A DNA stretch of 64,000 bases, from the NCBI GenBank assembly GCA_949130485.1, contig OX422183.1:124001-188000 (forward strand). The letters run 5' to 3'. Source of the DNA: Agelas oroides. Lineage: Eukaryota > Porifera > Demospongiae > Agelasida > Agelasidae. Of the stretch, positions 4,535-61,933 are shown piece by piece. The notes beneath the pieces were generated by a model. The model did no database searches. It had not been told where the DNA came from and saw only the letters and a program-made list of their open reading frames with translations. Each line of letters starts with the position of its first letter. The stretch's first letter is position 1. A program made the translations under genes and the position numbers.

Positions 4535-4544
4535 CATACTCCTT
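4535..4544 (-). other. Destroyed splice donor inside the SET domain of KMT2-A
   Basis: After the codons for Glu-Ser-Lys the minus strand of copy A reads GAGTATG. Copy B (36355 downwards) and both displaced SET fragments read GTGTGTG. The next GT in copy A lies two bases further on and would shift the frame of the following SET exon (starts 4455). Confidence 0.7.
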
Positions 4545-9016: not shown

Positions 9017-9019
9017 CTA
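9017..9019 (-). other. Nonsense codon in extended PHD exon of KMT2-A
   Basis: On the minus strand the exon reads Asp-Glu-TAG-Val-His. Copy B has TGG at 40625-40627, matching the Trp of the conserved E-W-x-H-V-N-C motif of KMT2 extended PHD domains. One G-to-A change explains it. Confidence 0.85.
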
Positions 9020-11256
9020 CTCGTCCACTGCACAGGGCAAGAGCCGCCCAGCCTCCTACAGGACCAGCAACAAGACATCATGAAATGGTGAAACTAGAAG
9101 GGGCCAATAGTGGCCTTTAGGACAAGACGTGGTGCTCACCATTGGCTCTGCGTCTCCCTCCACTGAACACAGTACACACCGTCTACCATCCTCTGTGTGG
9201 TGCTGCTCTGGCTCACATCTGCCCAGTGAGTCCTGGGGCATGTCTTCCTGTACCTGTACACCTGAGGCATAGCAGTGGTCGTGCACGAGCGGTGGGGGCC
9301 TGGAGAGGGAGGGAGGGAGGGAGGGAGGAGAGGGAGGGAGGAGAGGGGGGAAGGGAAGGTGGGAGGAAGAGAGGAGGGAGGAAGGGAGGGAGAGGGAGGG
9401 AGAGGGAGGGAGAGGGAGGGAGGGAGGGAGGGGGGGAGGGAGAGGAGGAGAGGCGAAGTACATGTCCTTGGATAAACAAGAGAATGCCAGTTCAATCGTC
9501 TTACCAATTGAGCTCCAGTGCCTTCAACTTCTTCTCGTCCTCTCTCCTGACTCCTCCCTCCTCACCCTTGTAATCTTCACTCTGTTTTTCCTTCTCTCCC
9601 TCCTCTTTGTTAGTGTCTCCCTCAAACCCATCCAGATGGAACCATGGGAAGTACTCCGCCATTAGCTGGAGACAGAGGGAGGGAGGGGGAGAGGGAGAGG
9701 GAGGGAGAGAGGGAGAGAGAGAAGGAGGGGGAGGGAGTGAGAGGAGAGGGAGAGAGGGAGACGTTCACTCTCTTCTACTACTTCAAACCAAACAGTAAAA
9801 CATGAGAACGTGGAGGTACATGTATATGAGGTGTCCTGTCCTGTGTTGGTACCTTGACAAAGTTGGTTCTCATGGTGACAGTGGAGCGGTACACCAACGA
9901 CCCTGGTTTGTGGTCCTTCAGACAGGCTTGCAGTGCCACGCCCACCTCCCTTGCAAACTGCGGCACAGTGGAGAACTGCTGACCGGCCAGCTGCACTCTG
10001 TGGCCAGGAACATTTAGCGCCGACACCATCTGTAGAGTGATACGTACATGTAACTATAGTGATATGCACATGATAAACTACAGCTGACATGCAATAGTGG
10101 ATGTCAAATCCACGATACCAATTAACATTTTTAGCTTCATATATAGCATCACGTGGGCACTCCATTTTGCTCTTCTCTAGCATTTTCTGCAGTCCCCAAT
10201 CAACCGCCCTACAATTTTAATAAATCACATTTGACCATCAAGCTGAGCCTCTTCCAACAGTCATGGCAACTATGGTGACCAATAGTGGATGTCCAATCTA
10301 ATTGAAATGTCTCATAGCGTCACGTGGGCACTCCATTTTGCTCTTCTCTAGCACTGGCATCTTGTGCAAGAGACAGCAGTCCTTAATCAACTGCACTAAA
10401 ATGGTGACAATCACATTTGACCATCAGGCGGAGCCTCTTCCAACAGTCATGGCAAGCACAATTCTGAGATGTATAGTGTACATTACTCAATGATTGCACA
10501 CAGGGCAAAGAGCCAGTTTGTCTACAAAGGGTCTGACTGGACTTTGTGTTTTGGAGAGCTCAGTGAACGAATGTTGAAACCATTGTCCAACAGCACGCAC
10601 AGGTATAAACATGTATAGACGACGATGCATTCACCATGCACATACCATGTATTGAACATAAACAGTACGTGCTTGTACCATGTATAAGTAGTTCCATATA
10701 TGACCTGTTTGCATACTTTTTGGCATGCCATCTCTACATCTTTTTACATTTTTAATGTTTGAGTAGTAATAAATACCTGCATGTAACATGCATGTACAGT
10801 AACATGCATGTAGCATACCTGAAAAACATCCCAAAACCACTCACAAAACATGTTCGTGCATGTATCATGTATCACGCATGTAGTTAACCTGAAACTTTCA
10901 TGTTACATGCATGTATGTAACATGAATGGTTTCAGTGTCTGAAACATCTAGCAGGATGCATGTAACGAATGCATGCCATTTTGTTAAGGGGAAACATCAC
11001 AGAACATGCACACAGTAATATGGAATACTTACCTCAGTGAATGATGTGTGCATATACTCATTGACAGCCATTCTCCACCCTGCCTCCCCTCCCTCTGCTC
11101 CACGACACAGCCGACAGTGAAACACCACCGACTCCGGCAGGTCTGACAGAATTTCATACTCTTCGTCTACACAAAGGTTGACAGGAGATCAATGAGAGTC
11201 ACTCCAGTATAGTGTCTTTAAACAGGAGTGTTGCACCAGCAATATGCCAGCCTTTA

Positions 11257-11312
11257 GCTAGCCTCGTTCCCAGCCTCTTTCTCAGAGGAAATGAGCCTGG
11301 GAACGAGGCTAG
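11257..11312. repeat. Small hairpin of the CTCGTTCCCAGG family
   Basis: AGCTAGCCTCGTTCCCAG on the left and its reverse complement on the right, with a short loop. It lies in the intron between the two PHD3 exons. Identical placement in copy B (42657-42712), so it predates the duplication. Confidence 0.65.
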
Positions 11313-12448
11313 CCTTCAGCAACGTACAAGGAACAAGAAACAAGCTACTGAAGGAAAATAACAAAATTTCATTAATAGCCATTCACTCGTGCTATTAATC
11401 CCAAATTGCACTCGAAACCATGCTATCAATTATACAAAGAACTGAAGTGCAAGAGGTGTTGAGATCTGGCAAGTACGAAAGATGTGTTTTCCTAACAAAA
11501 AAGCGCAAGGTCTGGCAAGTACGAAATCCCTCCCTCCCAAATGAAGTCCTCGATAGAAGGTTACGAAATGAAGCCAACCTTAGAGTCATAGTCACTGTCA
11601 GAGTAGCACTCTCCGCACACAGGACAGTAGTTTCCTGGGAGGAGAACAAGAGAGACCTTGTTACCCTCACCACGTGGGAACAAGACTAGCCAGCGTACCT
11701 CTCTCTTTCAGCTGGTGGCAGTCTACACAGTAGGTGAAATCATCCCTCCACTGCGTGCCTGCAATCTGTTACCATCGACAGATGAAACAGGCCAAAGGGG
11801 ACGGAGAAGAAAAGGGAAGAAGGAGTCAATCAACACAGATGAAACCTTGCAGCCCCGGCCTGGTGTACCTTGCAGGGTGAGGAAGATTTGCAACTGAGAC
11901 ATGCGGTGCAGTCCACACATTTCCATCTTCCACAGACAGTGGTAGATTGATGGTCACTCAGACAGCCCGGGTGGAACCAACGCCCACACACCACACAACA
12001 CACCGTGACACTGGAGAGAGAGGGAGAAGGAAGAACAGCATGTGAGGACAGATTTAGACTCTTTTGAAATGAGGGCATAAAAAAACATCCGAGCTAGAAA
12101 GAATAGCTCCGAAGGGTTGCCGAACAACAAGCGTGAAATATCCGCAGTGACAAAATTTAGCTAACGTGAGTCAAATCGCCAACGGAACGGAAGTCAATAG
12201 ACGTCCATACAATTTTATTTGCACCGGAAGTTAAGCTTCCTGTTTAAAAACGGCTGGTACAACAATTCTCATTATATATTCATCGACGTATATTTCTTTC
12301 TGTACTTCTGTACTGAGAAGTCCAAGTAATGTAAGCAAATTAATAATAACATGAACAAAATAATTATGCATGATTTTAAAGACTATACAAATAACAAAGA
12401 AAGTATGATTGTACTCAGGAGGCTTCAGGAGCAGCAGCTGATACAAAG

Positions 12449-13951
12449 ATGGTGAATACTGGTGGAAGAAGTCGCCGGAGGCTCTCATTCCCACCTGTAC
12501 AGGAGCAACCAGAGGATGAGCTAAGTAACTGTGCACTTTGTTCAGGCTGTTACACATCACTATATGAGCCTCAGACATGGAGGAATGAACAAGCATAGCA
12601 GATAGCAAAATCCTTCCATATTTGGCCTGATAAACGTATTTTTCGCTTATGCAAACGCAACTTGGTATGTTTTTTGACACAATATTTCCTCCATAACATA
12701 ACTAGACACCTCAGACAGGACAATATCTTTCTTGTCGCTGGTGGATTTCAAGGTGCTATACAAGATACGGCTTGGTTTGTCTCTTATGGCACCAGGCCCC
12801 AACCCAACCCAGCCTATACAAGTAACACAGAAGAAGCTGACACAAGGCTTTGGATGCATGTAAAAAGAACAAACGCTTCAAAAATACTCATCCTATCTCC
12901 GGATACCACTTCAGCATGGGAGTGAAAAGAATATAGTTATACAACTCAGTACATTCAACTCTAAACAATTAAAGTATTTGCACCTGTCAACTTTTGTTAC
13001 AGTACTACGGAATGACCCCGACCTCTCAGCCATCCCACCCCAGTTGATACCTCAAGTTTTTCAAACCATCTTTGTGGCTACCGGCTGCGATTACATCTCG
13101 TTTTTTAGCGGAATTGGTAAAGCCACCTTCCTGAGATATTTCTATCAGCATGCTGAGTTTATTTCCAGTGGCAAATACAATCTACCAGGTAACTGATGTT
13201 GATATTCTGGGTTCTTAGCATTGTTACGACTTGTTGGAACTGTCTACTCCCAAAACATTCTTCAGGCTTTTCCACTACTCCAGATAGACACTTCAATAAA
13301 TTCACTGATCCCAATCCATTACAACAGCATTGTAGTTGGCTTGATGACATCAGACAAACCATTTGGGATAGGATACAATTTGAGAGTGAGACGATTCCTA
13401 GCACTGAGGCACTATATCGTCACTGGAGACGAACATGTTGGGTGCTAGACATGTGGAAGAAGGCCAATAACAACCACATGGTTCTCCACCCCCATGCTAA
13501 CTTTGGATGGAAAGTTACTGATGAGTCCCTCACCTTTGACAGTGAAAGCAACATGGAAGCAGTCCGGCAACGCGTCATCCAGCTTCTGAAAGGCTGCAAG
13601 TGTAAAACTGGTTGCACAACTTCACGATGTGGCTGCAGGAAGAAGAATAAAGAGTGTTCAGAAGGATGTGAGTGTACAAATTGTTCCAACACACAGTCAA
13701 ACACACATACAGCCATTGACAATAGTGAAGATACCTTAATGGAGCTGAGTCTTGAAGAAAACTTTACGGAAAATAGGGAGCAATTTCTGGATGATGAGGT
13801 TGACGAAATTATGGACTATGTCTTTGGTGAGTACCCATTATGTGAAGAACATGAGGATAGCAGTGAAGTGGAAGATAGCATTGAAGTGGAAGATAGCATT
13901 GAAGTGGAAGATAGCAGTGAAGTGGAAGATAACAGTGAATATTTTGACTAA
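12449..13951 (+). pseudogene. FEN-like nuclease plus CXC-domain element, copy A (broken)
   Basis: Plus-strand coding remnant nested upstream of the KMT2 exons. ATG at 12449 opens a Cys-rich segment interrupted by TAG at 12596. Then comes a block with EEADTRLW and SPDT (12662-12925), a frameshift around 12905, and a block with GCDYISFF and GIGKA (12978-13196). The last block resembles the helix-hairpin region of FEN/XPG-type nucleases (inference). The last open stretch (13196-13951) encodes a clear CXC/tesmin-TSO1 motif (CKCKTGC, CGCRKKNKEC, about 13586-13690) and an acidic tail of 18-bp repeats (SIEVED). An AATAAA lies near 14073. Such multi-copy genes are common in sponges and cnidarians, and a mobile origin is likely but unproven. 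Confidence 0.65.
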
Positions 13952-24310: not shown

Positions 24311-24463
24311 ATGAGTCTGGAGTCTGACCACACGGACCTCCCACGCAGTCTAAAACTGGAGGACGGCTACACCTACATTTGCATTGTGAGGTTCATCGCT
24401 AGCTGCTATCCATTTTCCTCCGCAGAGGAGATTAGTGCTCAAATTCTGGAGACAAAGTTATAA
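24311..24463 (+). CDS. Short upstream ORF (50 codons) before NLR-A
   Basis: ATG at 24311 to TAA at 24461-24463. It begins MSLESDHTDLPRS and ends EISAQILETKL. Copy B has the same length and frame (55599-55751), with three conservative or moderate substitutions and no indel. It ends 13 bases before an AACGAG/GTACGC donor (24476/24477) whose intron would end at the AG just before the NLR start codon. It may be a regulatory uORF in the NLR leader or a real small peptide. It resembles no family I know. Initiation context and expression are unknown. Confidence 0.4.
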   Translation: MSLESDHTDLPRSLKLEDGYTYICIVRFIASCYPFSSAEEISAQILETKL

Positions 24464-24544: not shown

Positions 24545-27500
24545 ATGCCGATCAGTGCTAGGCACCGGAAACAAAAGACCAACGCCACGAAGGCATACCG
24601 AAAGCAACGGCAGAACATCTACCGCCACTGTCAACTGGGTCATGTGACCCCCAGCTATGCTCTGATTGTGGGAGTGTGTACTCTCATGCTACCCATGTTA
24701 GAGCTAGCAACTGAACATGTGCAGCTAACAGCCATGTACTACAGGAACCCCATCAACCATGTTCACGCACGTCACATGACCTTCAGCCACACCCCACTGG
24801 CACTACCATCCCTCAACAACGTGCTACCAGCCATGGCCCTCCAGAACAGAGTAGCGTGGTCAAATATCAACTGTCCGTCCCACTCCAGTGTCCGTCATGT
24901 TTCCCTCCACCCTGCTCCCACTGGTCTGGGGAGGAGGGTGGTGAGGGTGGTGGTGCTTCTACTGCTACTGATGAGTGGAGACATAGAGACGAACCCGGGG
25001 CCTGTTGGTAAGCGCACTTCCTTAATGTATAAGAAACTGAAATATAGCTACCATTTGATGAAATCTATAGATGGTTTATATGGTCACTTCCGAGGGCAAG
25101 AGTCTTGGTCTGTGTTTAGCTGTGCGCAAAATACAGGCAAGGAAGTGCTACATCGAGTCCTTACCATTAGTGCCGAAAGATAAAAGAAGCTGTTTCTCTG
25201 AAGGCAAAGGTCCGCTGTACAGCTGCCTCTTTGTCATATGTTTGCCCTCCGGAAGTAGGACGCTTAATTGATGTTTGGAAACCGTCTATAGCCAGTGACA
25301 TTATTATGATGCTTTTCAGTGGATTCAGTTATTGAAATCTGATAATTGGAACTTCAGTGCTATACTGTACCATACTGTAGTTGTATATTAATGACTGTAT
25401 TATAGCCAGAGATGAGGAACACTTTGTTACATGGTTATTGGCTTTGCACTGACAATGTACTGTCGTGTTCCACACACTCTGTAGGTCAAGGAGACCTGAA
25501 GTCTCTGCACTGTGAGCTACATCCAGTCTCTGCCAAGTGGTTCTCTCTTGGAGTACAGTTACAAGTTCCTATCGAAACTCTCAAGTGCATTCGAAGGGAA
25601 AATCTCCCAATGACTGAACGTCTACTAGAAATGCTGACAGTCTGGTTGAAATGCACCAACCCTCCTCCCACCTGGAACATTCTCACTGAAGCTCTTGAGA
25701 GTGCTCCTGTGGGGGAGGGGCTCCTGGCCCAGCAGCTGAGAGACAAGTACTGCACACAAACTGAGAGAAGGGTTGCCCATGACTACCCCACCCAACGACC
25801 ATCATCCCCTATTGGTCTCCCCACCTCTAACATCACTTCTCCTCCAGTATCTGAGCAGACTGTACCCATCCAGCAACCAGGAGTAGTGCACTTACCAGAC
25901 AGTAAGTGAAACTGTGGGGAAGGATGAACACACATCTTGAATAACTACGTATAACTGTCATCTTTCCAGGTCCTTCCCCTTGCTCCTCTCCCATCACTGG
26001 TGACTCAACCCCTCCCAAGACATCTCCCAGTTCACGACGTCTGACTGTGACCACACCCCCTCATCCCTCAGCAGGTATTTCATTTCTAGTAACATACTGT
26101 CCTCAGTATTTGTGCACAAAGCAAAATTATTCACTGCATGTTGTGGAACACTAGTTCATACTGAATGTTCACCATTCAGGTCCTGCAAGCCCACATGCTG
26201 TTGAAGATCAGGTCCGATACTTTGAGAGTAAATTTGGCAATCTTGTAGACAACACTTGCCGAGAAGTGAAGGGAGAAATTGAACCCCATGTCTTCCTATC
26301 CCGTGTCACATGCCTTCCAGTGTCAGCCCGCACTCAGCACCGAACCTTTATCAAGACAGATTTAGTCAACATTTCTCCACCAGTAACTTTTGAGAACATC
26401 TGGGCAACTCTGAACACATACTGGGACTTTCTGAACTATGGACTTTTGGAACATGTCATCAATAAATGCGGAAGTGAAGACTTGAAACAGCAGATGCAGG
26501 ACTATGTTGACGAACTGTCCACATTCAAGAAAACAACTCGGCTTTGTGACTTCATTGAGAGCTGGCCATGCAGAGATGATGGACCACCAGAACACCGTCT
26601 CAGGAAAATGGTTGTCAAAATGCAGAAAGAATGGTCCCAGTGCACACTACAAGATGTGGAGTCATTCAAGAAAGCTCTTGTTCACAAGTTCTTTCTACCA
26701 GAAATTGACATTCTCCTCCAAAAAGTAGAGAGGGGGTGTGTCTGTGTTACATGGCTCACCTCTCCCTCCATTACCTCACTGCTGCAGCAGAACCTGGCAA
26801 ACATTGAGACAGAGTTCTTCAAGAAACACGGCATCGACGCAGTCACCATTGGTGGTCAGGATGTCTACCTCACCCCTGTCAAAAAGTACAGTGGCTACCT
26901 GAGGGATCTGTACAACTCTAAGCGGTGTCCAGTGGGCATAGGTCCTCCCACCCCAGCAGAAAAACTCCTCCCCTTCAAACTAGCCAGGATTGAGAAAGAG
27001 AGCATAGATGAGTTCACAAGACGATACCTACGAGGGGATATGGACGATGTTGGTTCCCTTGGCACTGAGTACTATAAGAAGTCTCCAATGGAATTTGAAG
27101 AAGTTGGCAAACTCTCAAGCCACTTCTGGCAGAATCTTGTTCTTATAGAGGGAGCCCCTGGTGTGGGCAAAACAACCTTCAGTTGGGAGTTCTGCAGAAA
27201 GTGGGGGAAGGGTGAGATTCTGAAGGACCTTTCCCTGCTCCTCCTCCTCCCACTGCGTGACAACAGCCTGAAAGAGGCCAAGACCCTCTCAGATCTCTTC
27301 TACCACCCAAACTCAGAGCTCCAGCAGGCAGTGGTCCAGGAGGTCAACAACAACCAGGGCAAGGGAGTGGCTATCTGGCTGGAGGCATGGGATGAACTAG
27401 ATCATGAACCACGAGAGAAGGCCTCTGTGTTCCTCGACCTCATCCATGGTAGAATCCTACCCCTTGCAACTGTGTTTGTTACAAGCAGACCCTGGGCCAG

Positions 27501-29478
27501 TGAGCACCTCAGAGAGAACTGTGGACATCGAATCTCCCAGCATGTGGAGGTCCTGACATCTGCAAAAGACCAGATTGAACATTACATCAGCAAAGCTGAA
27601 GCTGAAGCACAGCCTAGTTCATTTGCTGCCAAATTCACTGACTACCTCTCATCTAATCCTGTAATCAGGGCAGCCATGTACACACCTGTCACAGCAAAGA
27701 TGGCAGCAGAAGTGTTTACCTGGAGCCAGCACACTGAGTCACCCCCTCCCACCACAATGACTGAACTATTTACTGCCTTTACCCTCAAGACCCTGGTAGA
27801 CTATCTCTCAACACATCCAGTATACCACAAACAGCAGTTGAAGGTCACCACCTTCAGTGACCTCCCCATAGATGTGTACAAGCAATTCCAGGACCTGTGC
27901 AGAATGGCCTATGAGGGTATACTGAACAGGCAACAGCTGGTTTTCTCTGCAGCCCACCTTCCCACTGGGTTTGCCCCCCTCGGCCTGATGCAGGAGGTCC
28001 CTCAACTGTACACTGAGGGCAGAGCCTCCTCCTACCACTTCATCCACTTGACCCTTCAGGAATACATGGCTGCTGTCCACATCTCACAACTCCCTGCACA
28101 TGAGCAGACAAGACTGTTTCAAGAACATGTTAACAGTGGCCACTTTAAAATGACCATGAGATTCTTGGCTGGTTGTACAAAGTTAGCAAACATACCTCCT
28201 GGTATTACGATGGGTACCAAACTTAACCATTTTCACTTTTTGTTTGAAGCAAAAGATATTTCAATGACTACCCGAACTCTGGGTTCAGATGAGATGGTTG
28301 TCTGGCCAAACTACTCCTGGACTCCCCTGGACTACTATGTGACAGGTCATGCCATCTCTCATTCCAACTGTCGTTGGAGACTGAACTTTATCAGCTCTTC
28401 CATTGATGATGAGAAGTTTGAACTGTTTTGCCAGGGATGTGCTGCCCCTGGGGGAATTGGATGCAGGGGCCACATCTCACATGCTTACTTTGGGGGCAAT
28501 GACCTCACCTCCAAAAGCATACAGTCATTTGTAAACATCCCCCCACACATCCTACAGTACATGAGAATGCTACACCTGTATCGCAACAAACTGGATGGGA
28601 GTGCATGTGACCTGCTGGCCAAGGCGGTACCATCAATTATCAGGTTAGAGGAGCTTTGGCTCGGTCGCAATCCAATAGGCAGTGGTGGTGCTGTGGAGGT
28701 GATCAAGGCACTCTGTGGCAGTGGAGTGAAACATCTGTGGCTGTACAGCACTGGGATTGGGGAGCCAGACTGTGAGGCTCTGTGTGAATTACTGAAATCA
28801 AGTCACTCACTTCAACGCCTTCAGATTGACCAGAACAACTTGTCCTCAGAGATTGTAGCCAGCATCATTACTGGACTCAGTCACAACAGTTCTCTGACGA
28901 CACTGGTCATTTCAAACTCTCACTTTAGCATGGTGAATGTGGACAGTTTAACATCAGTACTCAAAGACCACTCCAAGTGTGCACTGACAATGTTGTGCTT
29001 GGAAGACTGCCACATCAGCAGCGAAGGTGCAGTGGAACTGGCGGCTGCACTCTGCAAGAACACTACACTCGAACGCCTGGACTTGGGCCATAACCCCATC
29101 GGGGAGCATGTGGAGGGAGTGACTGCAGTAGCCAAAATGTTAGTAGAGAACAAAACACTGACAAAGTTGGACTTACGAGACTGCCACATCAGCAGTGAAG
29201 GTGCAGTGGAGCTGGCAGCTGCACTCTCCAAGAACTCAACTCTGAAACGTCTGTACCTGGATCGTAACCCCATTGGTGTGGAGGGAGCCTCCTCAATGTC
29301 AGACATGTTACAACACAACACACCACTGGAGGACCTCTACCTGTGTGATGACTCAGTTGGAGAAGAGGGGGTTAGCCAGCTCATTAACAGCCTCAAACAC
29401 AACCAGACATTGAGGAAAGTGTGGCTGCCAGTGAAGTACAAGTCAGAAACCAGTGACCACAGAATACATTGGCTGTGA
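24545..29478 (+). CDS. NLR immune receptor with 2A leader: 2A - Death - NACHT - LRR (copy A, intact)
   Basis: Four exons: 24545-25007, 25485-25901, 25970-26074, 26180-29478. Phases chain and give 1427 residues. ATG follows an acceptor directly (CTCCAG/ATG), so a 5' UTR intron is likely. Residues 1-153 form a basic leader with a hydrophobic stretch (about 38-54) and a Leu run ending in the 2A motif DIETNPGP. Residues about 158-240 are a Death domain. After a Ser/Pro linker and a helical region (about 400-560, unnamed) comes NACHT, with Walker A GAPGVGKTT at 27151-27177 and a Walker-B-like WLEAWDELD near 27376-27402. LRRs of the LDL-x-x-C type fill the C terminus. The family senses microbial or danger signals in the cytosol and signals through Death-fold partners. 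The 2A would separate leader from receptor during translation. The 3' UTR carries three units of a repeat of about 40 bp. Confidence 0.92.
24980..25003 (+). other. 2A-like ribosome-skipping motif, NLR-A
   Basis: Encodes DIETNPGP, exact fit to the D-(V/I)-E-x-N-P-G-P consensus, preceded by LLLLLMSG. The exon ends four bases later, so the cut would fall between Gly152 and Pro153, just before the Death-domain exon. Confidence 0.88.
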
Positions 29479-33582: not shown

Positions 33583-36500
33583 TCAGTTCAAAGTCTTGCG
33601 ACATCGCCGGGAGCCACAGTTGCACGGGATCTTTGCCTCTTCAATGGGGAACTTGTAGTCATACGTAAGCTCCTCTCCCGGTACAATCCTGCGGGGGAGA
33701 GGGGAGGAGGAACACTCACTATAGGTGGTTCCAGGAGAGGACAAGCTCATGTGCACAAAATATCTTAAATTTCACTCAGGCCAGGATTAGCTTGATGTTA
33801 TCCATGTGCCAAATCCTAGCTTTGTTCCCAGGCCCCGCCCAGCTTTCCGTTGCTTATTAGTATGGTAAAGCGGGAGAGGGCCTGGTATCTTTTCTCACGT
33901 GAGTGACGTCAGGATAGAAAGGATGGTAGAAGGGGTTTCATCGTGCGTGGGCGCACCGGGCCCACAACAGCGAAAAGAGCCAAGGTACCAGGTAACTTAC
34001 CACACGTATCTAGCTAGCGGGAGGCGACTGTCTTACACACCAAGCGTTGAGCGTGTAGTCGGTTTAAAATACACGAAACGCAGCATGTTAGTTCTGCAAA
34101 ATTTCGCCATTTTCCGATTACGTCATGCTCACGTGAGAAAAGATACCAGGCTCTCCACGGCTTTTCCGTACTGCAAGCGACGGAAATCTGGGCAGGGCCT
34201 GGGAATGAGGCTACCAAATCCCATTCAAAACAGATAATACAGTGTAATTAGCTCAGAAGTTCCCTAAAGGTCAAGTGAGGTGGATTACAGCAGAGATAAC
34301 AGAGATGGAATTGGATTTTGCCAAAATTTACGGCCAAACTGCGGCAAAATGCTGCTGTCACATCCACACTACAGCACACCTCGTCAGGCAATGCTTACTA
34401 ACAGACTTATCTCCTGTGTAGGTCCAAGCTGTATGTACACATATCAATTATTCCACAGTATCATGCATGCTCAGGTGCTATGCATGGCTGTGAATTAGCA
34501 CTCAACGAAGAGAGGTTGGACAGGGATTGCTTACTTTCTGAGGGCAAATATCATAATCTTCTTCTGTCCGTCGACAGTGATGACCTTTGAGTAGCAGTTT
34601 GGCTGCAGAGAGAAACATAACACAATGTAAGCGTCGTACCCAGGCCTCCCCCTTTTTTTGTTCTTTGGTTCTTCTGTGTATTATACTGAACGCAAACCAA
34701 AGAGCAAAAAATGGGAGCGGCCTGGGAACGAGGCTACCCAGGCCGCTCGTCGAGGCTAAAAACAATGTGACTGCGCAGGCCTCCACTCACACATCCACAA
34801 CAAGACTCAAAATGCATAACAGAAACTAGACGAATGCAGGGCATTGTGGGGCGAGCCTGAGCAAGCAGTATGCCAAGGACTACAATTGCGCATGCGTAGT
34901 TCGTATACACGCATGCCCTTTCGCACTTCTTGTCGAGGTGTCGAAGTTGGCGTGGTGTTTAGTAAGAAGTAAAGTTGCTGTTTGTTTACTGTGCCTCATC
35001 CGAGTGTACAAATGACAAAGGCAGTGTTGTACATTATTCACACAGGAATGACCTCGTAATTGAAAGTCTTCAATTCTTGGCCAACCCACATCTAGTTTTC
35101 TGCTTAAGGATGAGAAACAATGAATTGATTTGGAAGAGGCTAACATGCAATTGTGTACACAATCACCGTCTGGTTTTATCAATTTTTGTTGTAAACAACA
35201 TTACACTAATAACGATATAAAAGTGATGACATAATATTTCCTGTTTAGAGAGCTTACATTGGAGTTTCTATCGACCAAATGAGCTTCAAATGGTGTATGG
35301 TGGTAGTTTTTTTACACATTGCCAGTGAGTTAGTGGATGTTGGTTGGTTCAGTTTTTCCATTAGGGCTGTGTCAACACCATTCTTGGTAGCCACAAAAGT
35401 TTTCCAGACATCATGGGTTGAAGTTGCAAGGCCTATTAAAGATCACATGAATCATTCCATTTTCTCTGAGAGTTTCTACTCCAGGTTGCTGAACGTCGTG
35501 CTGGCTAGAAAAGATTGTGTAGTGGAGACAACTGCTTCCCATTCTTGCTTACCTGGGTAGACTCGTTCCCAGGCTCTCCCCCTTCTTAGTGGGGAGAGCC
35601 TGGGAACGAGTCTACACCTGGGTGCAGTTCACTGAAATCACACAGCTATTGCTTGAATTCTTTGTTGTTAAAGATCACCTGACAGTTGGCATCCTTTTCC
35701 TCCTTGACGTCGGCTTCTCTTGCCGTCATGGAAGCCATGTATATACGTATATGCTAATGCGATATTGGTACTTCATGCGACCAAGCGCGGCGCGTGGGTG
35801 ATTCTCTTGCGGTCACGGAAGCCATGTATGCTAATGCGATATTGGAAGCCCTACATACTACGTGCGACCAAGCGCGGCACACGGGTGACGGTCGTACGAT
35901 AATAATAATAATACATGAAATCGCCCAGTTGTACCGTCTATGTGGGGCTCGCTCAGGCTCGCCCCAATTAGTTGCTTTCTGGTATATATACATGTGTAAG
36001 TGCTAAGATACAAAGATTTAGCATGCATCAGTGATTAGAACCCCTTAGGCCACCATTCAATATTTCGACTGACATACTAAGACAGACAGGCTGATTGACT
36101 GACCATCCAGGCCTCCCCCTCACATGCTCACCTCACAGGCGTGATTGATGAATCTAGCCTCATTGCCTGACATGGTCGCATCCACCACTTCATCCGAGTC
36201 GATGCGGAACATGTAACATCCAATACCCTGGAGAAATGGACAGACAGAATTCTCAATGAACATGTATCCATACACACACATACACACACACCCACACCCA
36301 CACACACACACAACCCTCCTCCCCTCCCACACACACACACACATGACACACACACCTTGCTCTCATAGAGTTTTTCCCGCTTGTCGGTGAGCACAGATCG
36401 GATGACAGTGCCAGCATACTCAATCACCATCTCTCCAGGCTCAATCTCCCTAATGCAGTACAGCCCTAGACCATGGATGCCTGACTGGAACACGCCCACA

Positions 36501-39500
36501 TGTTGCTTGTACGTCTTTTGAAGGTTACGGTAGCGCATAGCCATCGGCAGATCCAATGCTGACTGCATCCTGGGTGGAACAACACATTGGGCACTCAACT
36601 CACAGATTGTACACAAGTCCATCACTGCTGAGAACAACTTGAACATTATTCTGTTCCATACGGCAATAGTGTTTAAAGTTCTGTATGAACTTTGCAGAAG
36701 TTCTACAGTGCTTTGAATGTGGTAACACGATTGAAATATGCAATTGTTTGATTTTTTTGTGTACACAACTCACTTGGTGACTCCAGCATTCTCGGCTACT
36801 GCCATTGCAGCCTCTAGTGCCGCAGTGTCTACCTCAGGTTTGAGAGGGCGGAAGGAGGACGTCAGGAAACTAAACATGTCCCGTGGAGAGCGAACACTGG
36901 AGAAGAAAAGCACAAATATAAAAAGTATTTTACCTCCAAGACCGTTCAGCCCAAAGGCCAATCTTCAACTTAAGGAGAGGCACTTGACTTGGGAAGCGTG
37001 AGAGAGAAGCTATGAGAGAGAAGCTACGAGAGAGAAGCTTGGGACTTACCCACAAAATGGCTCAGTCCTAGCACTGCCACTGGGGTTGAATGCTGCTCTC
37101 TGAAGGGGAGAAAGGAGCAGGAAGGAGGAGGGAAGGATGAGAGGGCCAGGAAGGGTAGGAAAATGGAGTAAAACACAGTGAGAAGGGCAGGTCATGAATG
37201 AGCTTACTGTTGCCTGCCAGCTGGAGAGCTTCTCAGGATGGTGGTATGTAAAGTGGTATCCACTGCACTTCTCAGAGTTGGGCAGCTGTTCCAACAGTTG
37301 GACCACCAGAGGATGACGGAGGCCAAACTGACGGTAGACGTCTGTACCTGCACAGAGGGAGGAGACCAGGTAGTTGGTGCCGGACCCAAGCACACTACAC
37401 ACACCTCTCACTCACCAGTGTAGGGGACGAAGGGCAGGTCTAGTTTGGCTCTCTGCAGCTGAAGCTCAGCAATCACTGAACACCACAACTCTGCAGGTGA
37501 GAAGACCATACGTACAATACCAGTGCAGGCTGCAGGGAAGGGGCCTGGTGGGCTTTAATTGGAAGGAGAGAGCCAAAGACTTCACATGTAGCATTGCTCT
37601 CCTCTACTACTACATACATGCACATCTTGGTTCTAAGACTCCCCACCCATCTCCGGCCCCCTTGGCTTTTTTAAGTTGCAAAATGTATAAAAACAGACCG
37701 AAAGTTGGGAGGCGCCTGGGAACGAGATTAGTCAGTTTGTTGAAATTATACTGATGTACATGCAATATAGCAATTCGTATGACGACAAATAGTATTTCCA
37801 CTCAACCAATCAAAATGCTGCAATATTATCATAGTAGTCGCTTGTCTGCACAATATGACAGACACACATTGACCTCTGACCTTCGAGGTTGTTGCTGGAC
37901 CACTGCTCCCCTTGGGAGGTGGAGAGGGTGAAGGTGAGGGTGTGAGGGTTGGAGGGGAGACCTGCATGGAACCGCCTCACACAACACGATCGCTGTACAG
38001 CATCTGAGCTGTCCTGGGAAGGAAGAGGGGAGGAGAGGAGGAGAGCGGAGGAAGGAGAGGAGGGCGGTGGTCGACGCTTGGGAATACGAAAGTTTCTGAT
38101 TGCTTCTGCGTTTGGGAAGTGAGATAGCTTGTGATCGTCAGTGGTGGGAGGGGAGGCGGGGATGCCGTACAGGACCAGCTGAGAGTGTTGTACTACTGGT
38201 ACAAATCTTAGACTAGTGATTCCGTCCAGTGCCAGGGCAGGTTTCACGGCTGGTGGTGGGGGGCTGGAGAGTCTCCTGCATAAACAACAGACAGAATATG
38301 CCAAGACTGAAATTTGAAGTTTTGTCAAACACTGCAACAATCTCTAACATGGACACTCATTCTAGTTAACCCTTAACCTGAATCACAGCTTGCAAAATGT
38401 TGTCATATATGTCGTATAGCGGGATAATTGGGCTAACCCCTACATGTACATCATGATCACAGCTTGCAAAATGTTTCAGATATGTAACCCTCCATTATTG
38501 CATACTGCAAGCGATCAAAACCTGGGAACAAGGCTAGAACATCTTGTGTTACAGGGATATGTACCTTTCTCTGTATCATATAATGCATACCCATGCTCGT
38601 ACAGACTCTCACACTGCACTGCACCCGTGTCTAAATGTGCTTGTGAAAATTACTAAGTTTAGTCAATTAAAGTTCCTAGTGTGTCCAGTTTGTTTTAGAA
38701 CCCCGGTTTACCTCTCACGGTGGCGGAGGGTGTCCCAGGTGGTGGTCAGCTCCCCGACTGTCACACAGGGACAGCCGAGGTCTGGAGCTTCCACCGTGGT
38801 ACCCTCCATTGAGGGGGCGTGGCTGGCCCACCAGTCCTCTTCCTCAGGAGCACTAAGTATGAGAGTGTAGGTACACGGGACAGAGGGACAACGCACACTC
38901 CAGAAGTCACAGCGACACCTGCAGAGATCGCACACAACCAAATCATGAACCTTGAACTAAAATAATATTCCCCACTCTTTTTGAACTTTCTCTCCCTCTA
39001 AAATCCAAATCTGCCATAATATTTCTCAGTCTTTTGAACTTTCTATGATGGGGCAAATAAGCCAGGGCATACTCTTTCTCCCCACCTTACAGATGGAGAG
39101 AAAAAGTGAACTACATGTACATCCTTTTCCCCTTCAGTACAGTGAAAATTTCAAGTGTACCCCCTATACTCTTTTTCCCCATCATCAGAGGGAGAAAAAG
39201 TTCCGCAAGTTCCTACCTAACTAAACCCCATGTAATCATACACTGTGTGGCCAAAGAGCCAGGGAGGGGGCTGGAAACGAGGAGGAAACTTCACACAGTA
39301 TAAACTTCATTCTCTTCTCTCCTCCCCACACACGAGGGCTACAGCAGTACTTGTACTGGTCTGGCAGCAGCAAGTTCGGCATCTCTGAGAGTTCCGTGAG
39401 AGAGCCCAGACCCTGCACACACAGTGACCCTGGAACAAACACATGAGGAGACGAACAAGGTCGCTAAGCTCACAGTGACCCTGGAACAAACACACGAGGA

Positions 39501-42500
39501 GACGAGATCTTACCAATCTGAATGCTGGTCTTGGCCGGTTGAAGGGAGCGTGGGATCTTGCGACTGGTTCTGTCTGGATGAACCTCCACTATCACACACC
39601 GTAACACAGCAATATCAACATCAGCCAAGACAGCCTGGTAAAGGGAGGGGGAGGGGAGTGTGGGGGGAGAAAGGGAGGAGTGGAGGAAGGGAGGAGGGGG
39701 GGGGAAAGAGAGGAAGGGAGGAGGAAGGGGGAGGGGGAGAGGAGGAAGGGAGGAAGGGGAGAAGGGAGGGAGTGGAGGGGGAGAGTGAAATGTTGCCAGG
39801 TTGTGGGTAGCTGCAACTTAATTGTTACTGGGTAAAACGATGATGGATCCGGAGAAGTCACGTTGTGAGTGGCTACAACTCAATTGCTATCAACAATCTC
39901 TCAGGAAGGGATGTAACAAGGAAGGGAAGGAATATAGTGACCATCAAATGCTGTACCTTGCCCTCTGCGAGGCTGGTGTGTTGCTCGCAGTAGACCTCCT
40001 TGTTCTTGAGGAAGAGACACTTGGCCTTGCGGGCACACTGAAAGTGGTAGTTGGCTGTGCACCAGCTTGCGCAACACCCCACGGTCGCACCCACTTCACG
40101 ACACACATCACAACGCTGGAGGGGAAGAGAACAGCTTGGATTTTAAAAAGAATGTGTACACTACGATCAAAAATAACAGGAGGAAGCTAGGGCGTAAGCG
40201 TGTCTACTAAGTGCATATGAGCTTCATCCTCAACTGAAAATTCAGCACTGCATGGATATCGCCACACTATGCCAGATGTTGCAGGAGTTGGCAACCTGAA
40301 CTTGTATGGTATGATACAACAAGCCTTGCTAAACTTTGCTGCACTTGGCAACAACAATTCTTGAAGCTATTAATTTGTAGGCAGGAATAAAATTGATGTA
40401 AGCTTTTCAGAAAGAGAAAAAATCTCAATACAGTGTTTTGAATAATGATGGATTGATGTCTACAGGAGACTCCTACAGATATGTGAGATATATTGAGCTC
40501 AAAATTACTGTAGTTAGCAGCCTACCAGTCGCACACCCCTGCTGATGGCCGCGTGCACACAGCACAGGATCCCAGAGCACTCCTCGTACACCTCTGCCGA
40601 CCACACGGCACAGTTGACATGCACCCACTCGTCCACTGCACAGGGCAAGAGCCGCCCAGCCTCCTACAGGACCAGCAACAAGACATCATGAAATGGTGAA
40701 ACTAGAAGGGGCCAATGGTGGCCTTTAGGACAAGACGTGGTGCTCACCATTGGCTCTGCGTCTCCCTCCACTGAACACAGTACACACCGTCTACCATCCT
40801 CTGTGTGGTGCTGCTCCGGCTCACATCTGCCCAGTGAGTCCCGGGGCATGTCTTCCTGTACCTGTACACCTGAGGCATAGCAGTGGTCGTGCACGAGCAG
40901 TGGGGGCCTGGAGGGAGGGAGGAAGGGGAGGAAAGAGGGAGGGAGGGAGGAGAGGGGGAGGGAGGAGAGGGGGAGGGAGGAGAGGGGGAAGGGAAGGTGG
41001 GAGGAAGAGAGGAGGGAGGGAGGGAGGGAGGGAGAGGAGGAGAGGTGAAGTACATGTCTTTGGATAAACAAGAGAATGGCAAAATAAATTGTCTTACCAA
41101 TTGAGCTCCGGTGCCTTCAACTTCTTCTCGTCCTCTCTCCTGACTCCTCCCTCCTCACCCTTGTACTCTTCACTCTGTTTTTCCTTCTCTCCCTCCTCTT
41201 TGTTAGTGTCTCCCTCAAACCCATCCAGATGGAACCATGGGAAGTACTGCGCCATTAGCTGGAGACAGAGGGAGGGAGTGAGGGAGAGGGAGTGAGTGAG
41301 GGAGAGTGAGGGAGAGGGAGAGAGAGGGAGAGAGAGTTCTTCTACTACTTCAAACCAAAGAGTAAAACATGAGAACATGCGAACGTGGAGGTACATGTAT
41401 ATGAGGTGTACTGTCCTGTGTTGGTACCTTGACAAAGTTGGCTCTCATGGTGACGGTGGAGCGATACACCAACGACCCTGGTTTGTGGTCCTTCAGACAG
41501 GCTTGCAGTGCCATGCCCACTTCCCATGCAAACTGTGGCACAGTGGAGAACTGCTGACCGGCCGGCTGCACTCCATGGCCAGGAACATTTAGTGCCGACA
41601 ACATCTGCAGAGTACATGTAACTATAGTGATACGCACCTGTAAGTAACTTTAGCTGAAAAGGTGACCATGCAATAGTGGATGTCAAATCCATGATAACAA
41701 TTGAAATGCTACACTTTTAGCTTCATATATAGCACTCTTCTTCACTCTTCTCTAGCATTTACTGCAGTCCCCAATCAACAATGGTGATAATCCCCCAGTC
41801 AAATTTGACTATCAAGCTGAGCCTCTTCCAACAGCAGTACGTCATTCTGAGATATATAGTGTACATTACTCAATGATTGCACACAGGGCAAAGAGCCGGT
41901 TTGTCTACAAAGGGTCTGACTGGACTTTGTGTTTTGGAGAGCTCAGTGAACGAATGTTGAAACCATTGTCCAACAGCACACACAGGTATAAACATGTATA
42001 GACGACGATGCATTCACCATGCACATACCACGTATTGAACATGCATGTACATGTAACACAAACAGTACATGCTTGTACCATGTATAAGTAGTTCCATATA
42101 TGACCTGTTTGCATACTTTTTGGCATGCCATCCTTACATCTTTCTACATTTTTAATGTTTGAGTAGTAATAAATACCTGCATGCTACATGCATGTACATT
42201 AACATGCATGTAGCATACCTGAAAAACATCCCAAAACCACTCACAAAACATGTTCGTGCATGTATCATGTATCACGCATGTAGTTAACCTGAAACTTTCA
42301 TGAAACAGGCATGTATGTAACATGAATGGTTTCAGTGCCTGAAACATCTAGCAGGATGCATGTAACGAATGCATGCCATTTTGTTCAGGGGATACATCAC
42401 AGAACATGCACACAGTAATATGGAATACTTACCTCAGTGAATGATGTGTGCATATACTCATTGACAGCCATTCTCCACCCTGCCTCCCCTCCCTCTGCTC

Positions 42501-52534: not shown

Positions 52535-52600
52535 GTTTTTTATAGCCTACTGCGTGGGTGTTTCATGTGGTATCCTCCAGCACTTTAAACGTGGTAACAT

Positions 52601-55751: not shown

Positions 55752-56269
55752 CGACTAAGAACGAGGTACGCGCGTCCTTGTTAGCCTCCTCTTTCAATTC
55801 TTAATTTGTCTTTCTCTCCCTCCAGATGCCGATCAGTGCTGGGCATCGGAAACAAAAGACTAACGCCATGAAGGCATACCGAAAGCAACGGCAGAACATC
55901 TACCACCACTGTCAACTGGGTCATGTAACCCCCAGCTATGCTGTGATAGTGGGAGTGTGTATTCTCATGCTACCCATGTTAGAACCACCAACCGAACATG
56001 TGCAGCTAGCAACCATGTACTACAGGAACCCCATCAACAATGTTCACGCACGTCACATGACCTTCAGCCACACCCCACCGGCACAACCATCCCTCAACAA
56101 CGTGCTACCAGCCATGGCCCTCCAGAACAGAGTAGCGTGGTCAAATATCAAATGTCCATCCCACTCCAGAGTCTGTCATGTTACCCTCAGCCCAGCTCCC
56201 ACTGTTCCCACTGGTCTGGGGAGGAGGGTGGTGAGGGTGGTGGTGCTTCTACTGCTACTGATGAGTGGA

Positions 56270-56293
56270 GACATAGAGACGAACCCAGGACCT
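56270..56293 (+). other. 2A-like ribosome-skipping motif, NLR-B
   Basis: DIETNPGP preceded by LLLLLMSG, with synonymous differences (CCA GGA against CCG GGG) relative to copy A. The motif is therefore kept at protein level despite base changes. Confidence 0.88.
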
Positions 56294-56352
56294 GTTGGTG
56301 AGTGTAGTTCCTAAGAAACTGAAATATGCCTACCATTTGATGGAATCTATAG

Positions 56353-56704: not shown

Positions 56705-58085
56705 TCTATAGATGGTTTATAAGGTCACTTCCGAGGGCAAGAGTCTTGGTCTGTGTTTAGCTGTGCTCAAAATACAGGCAAGGAAGTTCTACATCGAGTC
56801 CTTACCGTTAGTGCCGAAAGATAAAAGAAGCTGCTTCTCTGAAGGTGAAAGGTCCGCTGTACAGCTGCCTCTTTGTCATATGTTTGCCCTCCGGAAGTAG
56901 GGCGCTTAAATTGATGTTTGGAAACCGTCTATAGCTAGTGACATTATTATGATGCTTTTCAGTGGATTCAGTTATTGAAATCTGATAATTGGAACTTGAG
57001 TGCTATACTGGGCCATACTGTAGTTGTATATTGGAGTTAGTAATGACTATATTATAGCGAGAGATGAGGAACACTTTGTTACATGGTTATTGGCTTTGCA
57101 CTGACAATGTATTTTGTACTGTCGTGTGCCACACACTCTGTAGGTCAAGGAGACCTGAAGTCTCTGCACAGCGAACTACATCCAGTCTCTGACAAGTGGT
57201 TCTCTCTTGGAGTACAGCTACAAGTTCCTATCGAAACTCTCAAGTGCATTCGAAGGGAAAATCTCCCAATGACTGAACGTCTACTAGAAATGCTGACAGT
57301 CTGGTTGAAGTGTACCAACCCACCTCCCACCTGGACCATTCTCACTGAAGCTCTTGAGAGTCCTCCTGTGGGGGAGGGGCTCCTGGCCCAACAGCTGAGA
57401 GACAAGTACTGCACACAAACTGAGAGAGGGGTGACCCATGGCTACCCCACCCAACGACCATCATCCCCTCTTGCGCACCCAGCCTCTAACATCACTTCTC
57501 CTCCAGTATCTGAGCAGATGGTACCCATCCAGCAACCAGGAGTAGTCTACTTACCAGAGAGTAAGTGAAACTGTGAGGAAGGATTAGCCTCGTTCCCAGG
57601 CCTCCCCCATTTTTGTTCTTCGGTTTGCGTTCAGTATAATACACGGAAGTGGAAGAATGGTGAAAAATGGGGAAGGCCTGGGAACACTTGTCACATGAAT
57701 GACGTTAGGTGGACGTGGGGTGACTACAACCCTCGCCAGCAGATACAGGTAATGACAATTTTTCAGACTTGTAGGCCATAGTTCACAAGCAACTACTACA
57801 GTGTTGTCTGCAAGAAGACTTACCTCAAGCTTCATTTTTCATTTACTAGCTGAAGCCACTGCACAATCACCAAGATCATCCTGGACATTGAGGCTCGGGA
57901 ACCTGTTGGGTCGTGGTGTCACTCTCATCAGAGGATTATTCAATCCCACCTCCGATCACCCCACTCTTCCTCCAGAGATACCAGCGACTACACAACTTGT
58001 CACTGCGACCACAACCCCTCAACATCCAGCACAAGAACACACAGGTATGCACTTGGTAATAGTTTGGTATTACTATTGAAAGTAA

Positions 58086-58694
58086 CCTCGTTCCCAGGCC
58101 CGAAGAGCTCGTTCCCAGGCCCAAAGAGGAGGGGAAAGGGGCTGGTTTCAGCCGTTTGCGCATGAGCTTAATTATCTCTGATTTAACCACATGTTGATCA
58201 GTGGGAGGGTGTTAATGACGCCTTCCAAGTCACATGGTCAATGACGCCTTCAAAGTCACATGGTCAATCAGTGCATGACGTCGCTATCCATCGTATCAAA
58301 CCTGCCTAGCTAGCTAGCCTGAGTAGCTTTTATCTCAACACTTTGACCAACAACCTTGCACTGTTTATCAATGAAGATCTCTAGCACAAAGGGCAAACGG
58401 AAGCGCATGGAAGCCCAAGTTACCTCTTGCGATGGTTTTACCGGTAGGTAGCCTCTTCTTCTTGCCAGCTGACTCCACTTTCTGTTTATAGCTTCAAATC
58501 GGCCGCTGGATGAGTAAAATCGAGTGAGTTTCTTTGCATGCCATATGCTGCTGTGATAAATCTATGGACAGTGTAACAAGAGCGTACGAAAGTATATCAA
58601 TAGTATGCAGAGACGGTGGAATTCCACCGCGATTAAGCGCATGTGCAAACGGCTGAAACCAGCCCCTTTCTCCTCTTCAGGCCTGGGAACGAGG
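58086..58694. mobile_element. 0.6-kb palindromic element in intron 3 of NLR-B
   Basis: CCTCGTTCCCAGGCC at the left and GGCCTGGGAACGAGG at the right. Inner inverted arms contain GGCTGGTTTCAGCCGTTTGC. The element lies entirely upstream of the acceptor used for exon 4 (TGTCTGCAG at 58749-58757), so the open frame starting inside it is not the true exon start. Confidence 0.8.
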
Positions 58695-60559
58695 CTATAT
58701 TGAAAGTGTCATTGTTCTATGCTGAAAATCATGACTCGTCTTCCCAATTGTCTGCAGCTCTGCTAGACAGACAGTCAATCAAACAACAAGTAAAGCAGCT
58801 ACAAGATCATTTCATTCGTCTCACATACTGCACACATGATAAAGGTATCAGTGTGCATAGTGTTCATGCTTGGTTGATATCACTGGATGTTTTTCGGCAA
58901 CGTGAACACCAAGAGTTCATTAAGGACCATCTCACAAACATTGACAAAGAAACACATCTCAACAACCTTTGGGCAAGGCTAGGTACCTATTGGAACTTCC
59001 TAAACTTTGACCTTTTGGAACATCTTGTCAGCGGATTTGGCAGTGAAGACCTCAAGCAAAAGATGGAATCCTATAAATGTGATCTCCAGTCTTTCAGAAA
59101 AGCCACCAGGATCTGTGACTTCATCGACTGCTGGCCAGAGAGGATAGAACCTCCCCCTGAAAGCGAACTCCGAGAGTTTGTTGCCAAAGTGGGTTACTAC
59201 TGGGAAAACTGTACCCTTGAAGACCTGGACATGATAGAAGGAGTCATCACCCGCAGATTCTTTCTACCAAGGTTTGTCCTTCAGCTGAGGGAGATCAAGC
59301 CTGGCAGTATCACTGTCACTTGGCTCATACCAGCATCGTTTGTGAAGGCCTTACAGGTAGCCATTGAAGGCACCAGCAGTGAGTTCTTCATGGAGCAAAA
59401 GATTGAAACTATTACTATTGATGGACAGGAGTGCTACCCCACCCCCACCAGGAACCTTGTTGAGTACTCAGAGAAGCAGCTCACCTCAGAGAGTGTGGCT
59501 AAACCAGAACCAGAAATACAGCAGAGAGAGGATCCATCAGTGGGTGTTGTTTCTAAAAAGCTCCACTCATTCAAATCAAGGGCAAGTGAGGAACGAGCAT
59601 CCCAAAAAGAAACGCACAGGATGAGACTTGCAGGGGGAATACTCTCTGGTGAGTCCACAAGTATGGTTCCTTCTGAGAAGATCCAGTTTGACACACAACC
59701 AGGTGAAACAAAGCGAGGTACAGAATCATCCAGTTTCCTGAGTAAACTCAAGCAAAACCTAGCAATACAACAACAGACAATACCATCTAAGCAACCAAGT
59801 AAATACCAGAGAATGCCATACACCTCTGATTCTCCCAGATTAGATGAGATGAAGTCTCTCTCAGAAGAGTTCCCGAAGCCTATTGGTGGTACCAAACCAA
59901 GGTCTAGCTCGTACAGCTCCAGAGAGTTGTTTGACAGTCCCACACTGGAGGAAATGGAAGAGTTGTCACTAATGCCAGAGCCTCACACTCACCTAGGTGG
60001 TATGACCACAACCCCTCAACATCCAGCACAAGAACACACAGGTACAAGATTTGGTTATTCTAGCTCCAGTTCAGAAGATTGGTTTGAGCAAGCTGAGATA
60101 GATGTTAGGAAGGGATTTTGGGTCGACCCGCCCACAGCAGGTGAGAGCTATGTCAGAGAGAAATGTGTAGATGAAATCTCACGACACGTTAAACTGTTAC
60201 CATCACCAGAGCAGTATCTGAGCAAAACTGAGGTAGAAGCTGACTCATTCCTTCCCACCAAGTACAAGGACTACCTGTTCTCTACCCCTGCCATCAGAGC
60301 AGCATTGTATACCACCTTCAATGCAAAGATGTCAGCAGAAGTGTTCACCTGGAGCCTACACACTGAGTCACCCCCTCCCACAACTATGACTGAACTCTTC
60401 ACTGCCGTTACCCTTAAGACCCTGGTAGACCATCTCTCAACACACCCAGTTCACCACAAACAGCAGTTGAAGGTCACCACCTTCAGTGACCTCCCCACAG
60501 ATGTGTACAAGCAATTCCAGGACCTGTGCAGAATGGCCTATGAGGGTATACTGAACAGG

Positions 60560-60562
60560 TAA
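60560..60562 (+). other. In-frame TAA in NLR-B
   Basis: Copy B reads AAC AGG TAA CAG CTG. Copy A reads AAC AGG CAA CAG CTG at 27926-27940. A single C-to-T change truncates the product just before the distal NACHT and LRR part. Confidence 0.9.
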
Positions 60563-61933
60563 CAGCTGGTTTTCTCTGCGGCCCACCTTCCCACTGGGTT
60601 TGCCCCCCTCGGCCTGATGCAGGAGGTCCCTCAACTGTACACTGTGGGCAGAGCCTCCTCCTACCACTTCATCCACTTGACACTACAGGAATACTTGGCT
60701 GCCATCCACATCTCACAACTCCCTGCATATGAGCAGACAAGACTCTTTCAAGAACATGTTAACAGTGGCCACTTCAAAATGACCATGAGATTCTTGGCTG
60801 GTCGTACAAAGTTAGCAAACATACCTCCTGACATTACGATGGAGACCAACCTTAACTATTTTCACTTTTTGTTTGAGGCAAAAGACATTTCAATGACTAC
60901 CAGAACTCTGGGTTCAGATGAGATGGTTGTCCAGTCACGCTACTCCTGGACTCCACTGGACTACTATGTGACAGGCCATGCCATCTCTCATTCCAACTGC
61001 CCCTGGAGTCTGAGCTTTTTCAACTCATCCATTGATGATGAGAAGTTTGAACTGTTTTGCCAGGGATGTGCTGCCCCTGGGGGAACTGGATGCAGGGGCC
61101 ACATCTCATATGCTAACTTCAGTCACAATGACATCACCTCCAAAAGCATACAGTCATTTGTAAACATCCCCCCACACATCCTACAGAACATGAGAGAGCT
61201 GTACTTGAGTCACAACAAACTGGATGGGAGTGCATGTGACTTGCTGGCCAAGGTAGTACCATCAATGTCCAGGTTAGAGGAGCTTTGGCTCAGTGACAAC
61301 CCAATAGGCAGTGGTGGTGCTGTGGAGGTGATCAAGGCACTCTGTGGCAATGGAGTAAAAGAACTGTGGCTGTACGACACTGGGATTGGGGAACCAGACT
61401 GTGAGGCTCTGTGTGAACTACTGAAATCAAGTCACTCACTTCAACACCTTAGCATTGACATGAACAACTTGTCCTCAGAGAGTGTAGCCAGCATCATCAC
61501 TGGACTCAGTCACAACAGTTCTCTGACAACACTGAACATTTCAAACTCTCACTTTAGCAAGACAAATGTGGACAGTTTAGCATCAGTACTCAAAGACCAC
61601 TCCAAGTGCACACTGACAACGTTGGACTTGCGAGACTGCCACATCAGCAGTGAAGGTGGTGTGAAACTGGCGGCTGAACTCTGCAATAACTCAACTCTGA
61701 AACATCTGAACCTGAATTGTAACCCCATTGGTGTGGAGGGAGCCTCCTCAATGTCAGACATGTTACAACACAACACATCACCACAATACCTCTACCTGGG
61801 TGATGACTCAGTCGGAGAAGAGGGGGTTCGCCAGCTCATTAACAGCCTCAAACACAACCAGACATTGAGGGGACTGTGGCTGCCAAGGAAGTACAAGTCA
61901 AAAACCAGTGACCACAGAATAGATTGGTGGTGA

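Follow-up and report, generated by a model that had tools for sequence, protein, structure and literature searches.

Predicted long StopGo (2A) leaders at the N termini of Death-domain receptors in the sponge Agelas oroides

Two receptor genes with a 2A leader exon

The window, by which we mean the whole 64,000-nucleotide stretch of Agelas oroides DNA analysed here (contig OX422183.1, positions 124,001 to 188,000 of the forward strand), contains a receptor gene (gene 1) in which a leader exon is followed by Death, NACHT and leucine-rich repeat (LRR) regions in a single open frame of 1427 amino acids. Its four exons (24545-25007, 25485-25901, 25970-26074 and 26180-29478) are bounded by GT/AG sites, are joined at phase-1 junctions and have their sole stop at the end. 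Because a second copy is found at 55826-61933 (gene 2), the window repeats the leader-Death arrangement. The features of the two genes, in window coordinates, are as follows.

24545..25007, + strand: gene 1 leader exon (type A); codes for 152 residues as far as the glycine of the 2A, then Pro-Val, and ends in phase 1
24545..25007, + strand: borders of that exon; acceptor TCCCTCCAG/ATG, donor GTTG/GTAAGC
24656..24712, + strand: N-proximal hydrophobic segment, leader residues 38-56; candidate signal-anchor, Kyte-Doolittle 19-residue mean 1.77
24932..25003, + strand: C-terminal end of the leader (residues 130-153), comprising a hydrophobic stretch and the 2A motif, RRVVRVVVLLLLLMSGDIETNPGP
25485..25901, + strand: Death domain exon of gene 1; PF00531, E 8.5e-05; phase-1 junctions
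25970..26074, + strand: gene 1 linker exon, with both junctions in phase 1
26180..29478, + strand: NACHT-LRR exon of gene 1, stop codon included; PF05729 1.9e-14, LRR_6 1.4e-18
55826..56297, + strand: gene 2 leader exon; 89% leader identity with gene 1, same 2A
57144..57560, + strand: Death domain exon of gene 2; E 1.3e-04, 0.1 bit below the Pfam cut-off
58637..61933, + strand: receptor body of gene 2 (bounds of two open frames); LRRs; in-frame TAA at 60560

The original prediction held that a leader ending in 2A continues, in phase, into a Death-NACHT-LRR receptor. It is borne out by the translation of the leader exon, which ends in LLLLLMSGDIETNPG/P with the motif DIETNPGP, and by the 1427-residue frame with its domain matches; the proposed junction of 25007 with 25485 is exact in the gene model, at GT/AG sites. 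The leader is also long and basic with a hydrophobic stretch of its own, as had been foreseen (152 residues, pI 10.7, segment at residues 38-56), and residues 1-33, ahead of this first hydrophobic segment, carry a net charge of +9. The octapeptide is in frame, conforms to the D(V/I)ExNPGP pattern of StopGo (2A) elements and has Leu-rich sequence ahead of it. Death, NACHT and LRR lie in one frame, by which gene 1 is classed as an NLR; its Death domain scores 23.1 bits against a Pfam cut-off of 22.6, and a Pfam search of the leader finds no domain. Should the Gly-Pro bond at NPG/P be skipped, the predicted products are a protein of 152 amino acids (17.1 kDa, pI 10.7) and one of 1275 amino acids (143 kDa).

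The ATG of gene 1 comes immediately after sequence that resembles a splice acceptor, and the leader exon is therefore probably preceded by an untranslated exon. Before the leader there is also an upstream frame of 50 codons (24311-24463), intact in five near copies (L009, which is gene 1; L010; L011; L013, which is gene 2; and L014) and broken in L015-L017.

A Pfam search of the gene 2 receptor body gives no NACHT, so gene 2 lacks the three-domain set by which gene 1 is classed; by eye, a Ser-rich stretch stands in place of the P-loop half of NACHT. In alignment A1 and in the domain search the gene 2 leader was begun at 55829 rather than 55826, and A1 is without its Met. Elsewhere in the window, similar blocks at 4506-13951 and 36128-45379 hold, by eye, a fragment of a SET-like methyltransferase together with a Cys-rich protein. 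They lie about 31 kb apart, as do the two receptor genes, and the blocks and their spacing probably reflect one segmental duplication. A tandem repeat at 52598-53851 has several readable frames on both strands.

Leader families and the receptors that they head

Across the genome surveyed (259 Mb, 141 contigs), the 2A DNA pattern has 285 exact matches and the same pattern read backwards has none, so the matches are not the work of chance. Not all are leaders; at least two sit in mobile-element-like frames. Two leader families can be distinguished. Type A gave 74 protein-level match rows, which merge to 71 loci (three rows were dropped as second pieces of one locus). Type B, first met by reading another 2A site (L029), is unrelated to type A in sequence and similar to it in layout; its 86 rows reduce to 79 loci after removal of five second pieces and of two fragments (C1:3797386 and C1:4464470) that may be separate loci. 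Both types together account for about 150 genomic loci.

The 2A element was followed in 68 type A alignments from 64 of the 71 loci, with overlapping fetches counted twice. NPGP is present in all 66 that extend to the 3' end; the remaining two are upstream pieces. D[IVM]ExNPGP occurs in 64 of the 68, which were not preselected on the 2A pattern; one alignment has DIKTNPGP and another DLETNPGP. Stops interrupt 4 of the 62 type A matches that span at least 120 residues, and leader length varies, the short form at L030 having 64 residues from the first listed Met to the 2A octapeptide. Alignments A1 and A2 have no relative in viral_contigs or genome_contigs (viral and prokaryote contigs, a weak test), and the leaders have no credible match in PDB (type A alignment), Pfam or NCBIfam.

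The junction with the Death domain is similarly regular. A GTRAG donor stands at a constant offset after the NPGP codons in 58 of 62 type A leaders; L061 has GCAAG at the donor offset, possibly a rarer donor. At L024, L025 and L026, leader, 2A and Death form one uninterrupted frame, and these loci are the strongest evidence for a single leader-2A-Death frame because no intron need be assumed. An in-frame ATG comes right after a pyrimidine-rich, acceptor-like sequence in 33 of the 62. As read from sequence, a large Death-domain receptor family genuinely opens with the leader as its first coding module, which ends in a StopGo (2A) element.

In all 20 fully fetched type A loci (L009-L028), the leader is followed in order, on one strand, by Death, by a complete or partial NACHT and by LRR. 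The P-loop half of NACHT is present in 11 of these receptors and absent from nine (L010, L012, L013, L018, L020, L022, L024, L025 and L026), in which the rest of NACHT and the LRRs are kept; these possibly constitute a class of ATPase-less sister receptors. Five more loci read downstream have Death after the leader, by match positions at L029, L030 and L033 and by eye at L034 and L087, so that every leader locus read downstream (25/25) reaches a Death domain. Type B was read downstream at two loci only, L029 and L087 (4 kb fetched, reaching its Death domain), and both have Death, with a score at L029 of 19.0, below the Pfam cut-off of 22.6. Ankyrin repeats come after Death at L029 (type B, by Pfam) and at L034 (type A, by eye). 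A conserved, unnamed region (around SFFNYR.IEHI) follows Death at L029, L034 and L087, and precedes the ankyrin repeats at the first two; by eye it resembles the pre-NACHT region of gene 1.

Genome-wide, a Death match lies no more than 6 kb downstream on the same strand for at least 52 of 71 type A and at least 44 of 79 type B leaders; these are minima and misses are expected, because 150 of 720 Death candidates were scored, and further listed Death matches exist outside the count. The remaining 19 type A and 35 type B leaders have no listed Death match within that distance. Among the matches listed, none lies downstream on the opposite strand, and Death is upstream on the same strand of two type A leaders and of no type B leader.

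Among 41 close receptor relatives (72% identity cut, not counting the second pieces at C11:272378, C1:634189 and C1:634068), a type A leader is found within 12 kb upstream of 35, a limit that may reach a neighbouring gene in tight arrays such as that at C1:203234. Two have a type B leader only and four have neither, one of the four (C1:1550270) having a 2A match upstream at C1:1546514. For more distant relatives the figure is 4 of the first 42 rows tested. Being common in close relatives and rare in distant ones, the leader marks one receptor branch, not all NLRs. Within the branch it is not tied to one receptor class, since the leader of gene 1 shares 96% identity with the leader of L010, whose receptor is without the P-loop half, and since the nearest-neighbour leader heads the same class in only 10 of 19 leaders (the L018 leader, a duplicate of one in L015, was left out). 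Gene conversion or exon exchange may have spread the leader over receptor classes. The correlation between leader distances and receptor distances is weak (Spearman 0.08 to 0.37), and co-inheritance of the two is for that reason not well shown.

Leader constraint, topology and a proposed route of expression

Pooled over 20 loci, pN/pS is 0.54 for the leader, 0.42 for Death and 0.69 for LRR, with 0.37 for the pre-NACHT region, 0.34 for the C-half of NACHT, 0.44 for the winged-helix region and 0.23 for the NACHT N-half (11 loci); 189 pairs were used for the leader, 61 for Death and 73 for pre-NACHT, saturated pairs being excluded. Within the type A leader (62 sequences, 402-421 pairs) the values are 0.80 for the basic N-terminal part, 0.45 for the first hydrophobic segment, 0.61 for the middle and 0.47 for the C-terminal hydrophobic part. 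The type B leader gives 0.49 overall (13 sequences, 35 pairs). The 2A itself gives 0.16 in type A and 0.175 in type B, figures that are biased because the 2A pattern was the criterion by which the sequences were picked. Scattered leader residues (LPAM, QL, HV and C39 of the consensus) are 85-97% identical across 62 sequences. By these measures, leaders evolve as coding sequence. A simulation of openness (neutral mean 25 of 62 open) was set aside as coding evidence, since the sequences had been read back to a stop and were open by construction.

How might such a module be used? In the explanation that we favour with moderate confidence, ribosomes would first translate the basic leader of about 150 residues, the N-proximal hydrophobic segment of which would engage the signal recognition particle before the skip. 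At NPG/P the Gly-Pro bond would then be skipped, as expected from known 2A biology, and a separate receptor beginning Pro-Val-Gly-Death domain would be made. The leader would stay in the endoplasmic reticulum (ER) membrane as a small separate protein, and the membrane-docked ribosome would release the receptor into the cytosol. An unskipped fraction, presumably a minority, would be a membrane-tethered receptor, with 2A efficiency setting the ratio of free to tethered forms.

Geometry is consistent with this order of events. From the end of the hydrophobic segment to NPG/P, the median distance is 102 residues in type A (61 sequences, range 37-147) and 61 residues in type B (13 sequences, range 59-73). 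The ribosome tunnel is described, in the portions of the literature available, as holding 30-40 residues, and ribosome plus translocon 65-70. Because both medians exceed the 30-40 residues of the tunnel, the segment should be outside it at the skip, and the leader could thus reach the membrane before skipping. Membrane targeting is read here from hydropathy, which for the gene 1 segment is only moderate (1.77). Charge flanks suggest opposite topologies for type A and type B. In type A, 23 of 62 leaders have one or more glycosylation sequons, which are not conserved, and an AlphaFold model of the leader, from two input sequences, is uninformative (mean pLDDT 36.9). Translocation of the upstream protein into the ER can, in the accessible part of the published record, inhibit 2A; skipping might for this reason be poor here, and this is the chief source of doubt about the ratio of free to tethered receptor.

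A broader proposal can be envisioned, although we hold it only tentatively. StopGo could govern the expression of Death-domain receptors throughout this genome. About 150 receptors would be made one-to-one with small basic membrane proteins from two unrelated families; these proteins would act as co-translated membrane anchors or partners, docking the synthesis of receptors at the ER, and the leader module would have been shuffled among NACHT, P-loop-less and ankyrin receptors.

Other explanations give the leader a lesser part. It is unlikely, to our reading, that the 2A is active and the leader an inert spacer between start codon and 2A, the aim being a leaderless receptor with an N-terminal proline. 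The weak constraint on the N-terminal basic part (pN/pS 0.80) and the variable length, with short forms such as L030, would suit a spacer; the residues 85-97% identical over 62 sequences would not, nor would a hydrophobic segment before the 2A that is common to two unrelated leader families. Still less probable is a leader that acts as a signal sequence ahead of a 2A that mostly fails, so that receptors are chiefly membrane-bound fusions, of which the transmembrane segments in sponge NLR annotations could be examples. The reported inhibition of 2A by ER entry of the upstream protein speaks for such failure, as do the transmembrane domains in NLR architectures of Dysidea avara described in the available text of PMC12909245; yet NPGP would then be dispensable, and it is kept in 66 of 66 type A alignments reaching the 3' end.

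Two further readings are very improbable. The leader exon could be an upstream remnant, or an alternative first exon rarely joined, with receptors starting at a downstream Met; the position of the ATG after acceptor-like sequence does suggest a 5' structure of more than one exon, but the single-exon leader-2A-Death frames at L024-L026, the constant donor offset in 58 of 62 and the coding constraint on the leader all argue against this. The suggestion of the original prediction that the leader is a captured retroelement 5' region, to which some colour is lent by the 2A of two mobile elements in the genome (L031, L032), finds no support among the loci read: Death follows in 25 of 25 leader loci read downstream, none has a mobile element there, and the sequence ahead of the 2A in L031 and L032 is unrelated by eye.

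These two elements are of interest in themselves. L031 (G000:C1:10533300-10537300) is a Helitron-like frame that carries 2A close to its beginning, ahead of PHD, DUF6570 and Helitron_like_N; no paper came up in a literature search that combined Helitron and NPGP. L032 (G000:C2:6185200-6189200) is LINE-like, with 2A and then, by eye, a PHD-like Cys motif, an arrangement that we take to be that of 2A-bearing non-LTR elements. Non-LTR retrotransposons reportedly carry 2A near the N-terminus of their open frame, and the receptor leaders are like them in that respect. The leaders differ from L031 and L032 in having Death as the next domain rather than PHD or a PHD-like motif.

Relation to known 2A systems and significance

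N-terminal 2A on NLRs is already known from the sea urchin, a parallel that had rightly been drawn at the outset. As described in the available text of Roulston 2016 (PMC4981915), NLRs of Strongylocentrotus purpuratus (SpNLR2A) carry N-terminal 2A signal sequences in 85 of 241 genes, with a 26-amino-acid form in 14 of 87 later database entries; the 2A of one such NLR is about 80% active in vitro, its reporter is cytosolic in HeLa cells, and a skipping-dead mutant sends the reporter to the Golgi. Like SpNLR2A as there described, the Agelas oroides genes encode Death-NACHT-LRR receptors with 2A at the N-terminus or close by, beside a hydrophobic tract, and are numerous. Whereas the 26-residue sea urchin segment is, on that account, both signal and 2A, the sponge leaders run to about 130-150 residues, more than five times longer, and have a separate hydrophobic segment; the leader of gene 1, with 152 residues, lies far outside the form of about 26 residues. 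The sea urchin form, at the length given there, would still be in the tunnel at the skip, whereas the sponge segment should be outside. Unlike SpNLR2A, the sponge has two unrelated leader families, type A occupying a separate exon at most loci, and its leaders also head Death-ankyrin genes and P-loop-less receptors. We regard long leaders with a separate segment, in two families, as a new variant of a known arrangement.

The comparison extends to viruses. A 2026 StopGo paper (PMC12846837), in the text available, describes StopGo as common in RNA viruses and rare in cellular genes, and cites the sea urchin case; the words sponge, Porifera and NLR are absent from it. According to the same text, D, E, N and the preceding Leu-rich stretch matter in F2A (PMC12846837). 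The Agelas oroides leaders share the D(V/I)ExNPGP core and the Leu-rich stretch ahead of it with F2A and other viral StopGo, and differ from the viral elements as treated there in belonging to cellular genes, with one element per N-terminus. For sponges, the NLR repertoire of Dysidea avara, in the available text of PMC12909245, comprises Death-NACHT-LRR genes, tandem copies and architectures with transmembrane domains; the first two of these are shared with Agelas oroides, and the term '2A-like' is absent from the main text of that paper. Among the papers listed by text searches of the literature, thin on subscription journals, none was pertinent to 2A in sponge NLRs.

On sequence grounds, one messenger of these genes may make two proteins. 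A single animal genome holds 285 exact 2A DNA matches and about 150 leader loci, at least 96 of them with Death no more than 6 kb downstream. If active, these would exceed the 85 sea urchin genes given in the available text of Roulston 2016 (PMC4981915) and would be the largest cellular case met in the literature consulted; N-terminal 2A on immune receptors of different animals would then reflect convergence or ancestral retention. Active elements would also make these genes natural material for testing the interplay of ER targeting and skipping, and NLRs annotated as membrane-bound could perhaps be read in a second way.
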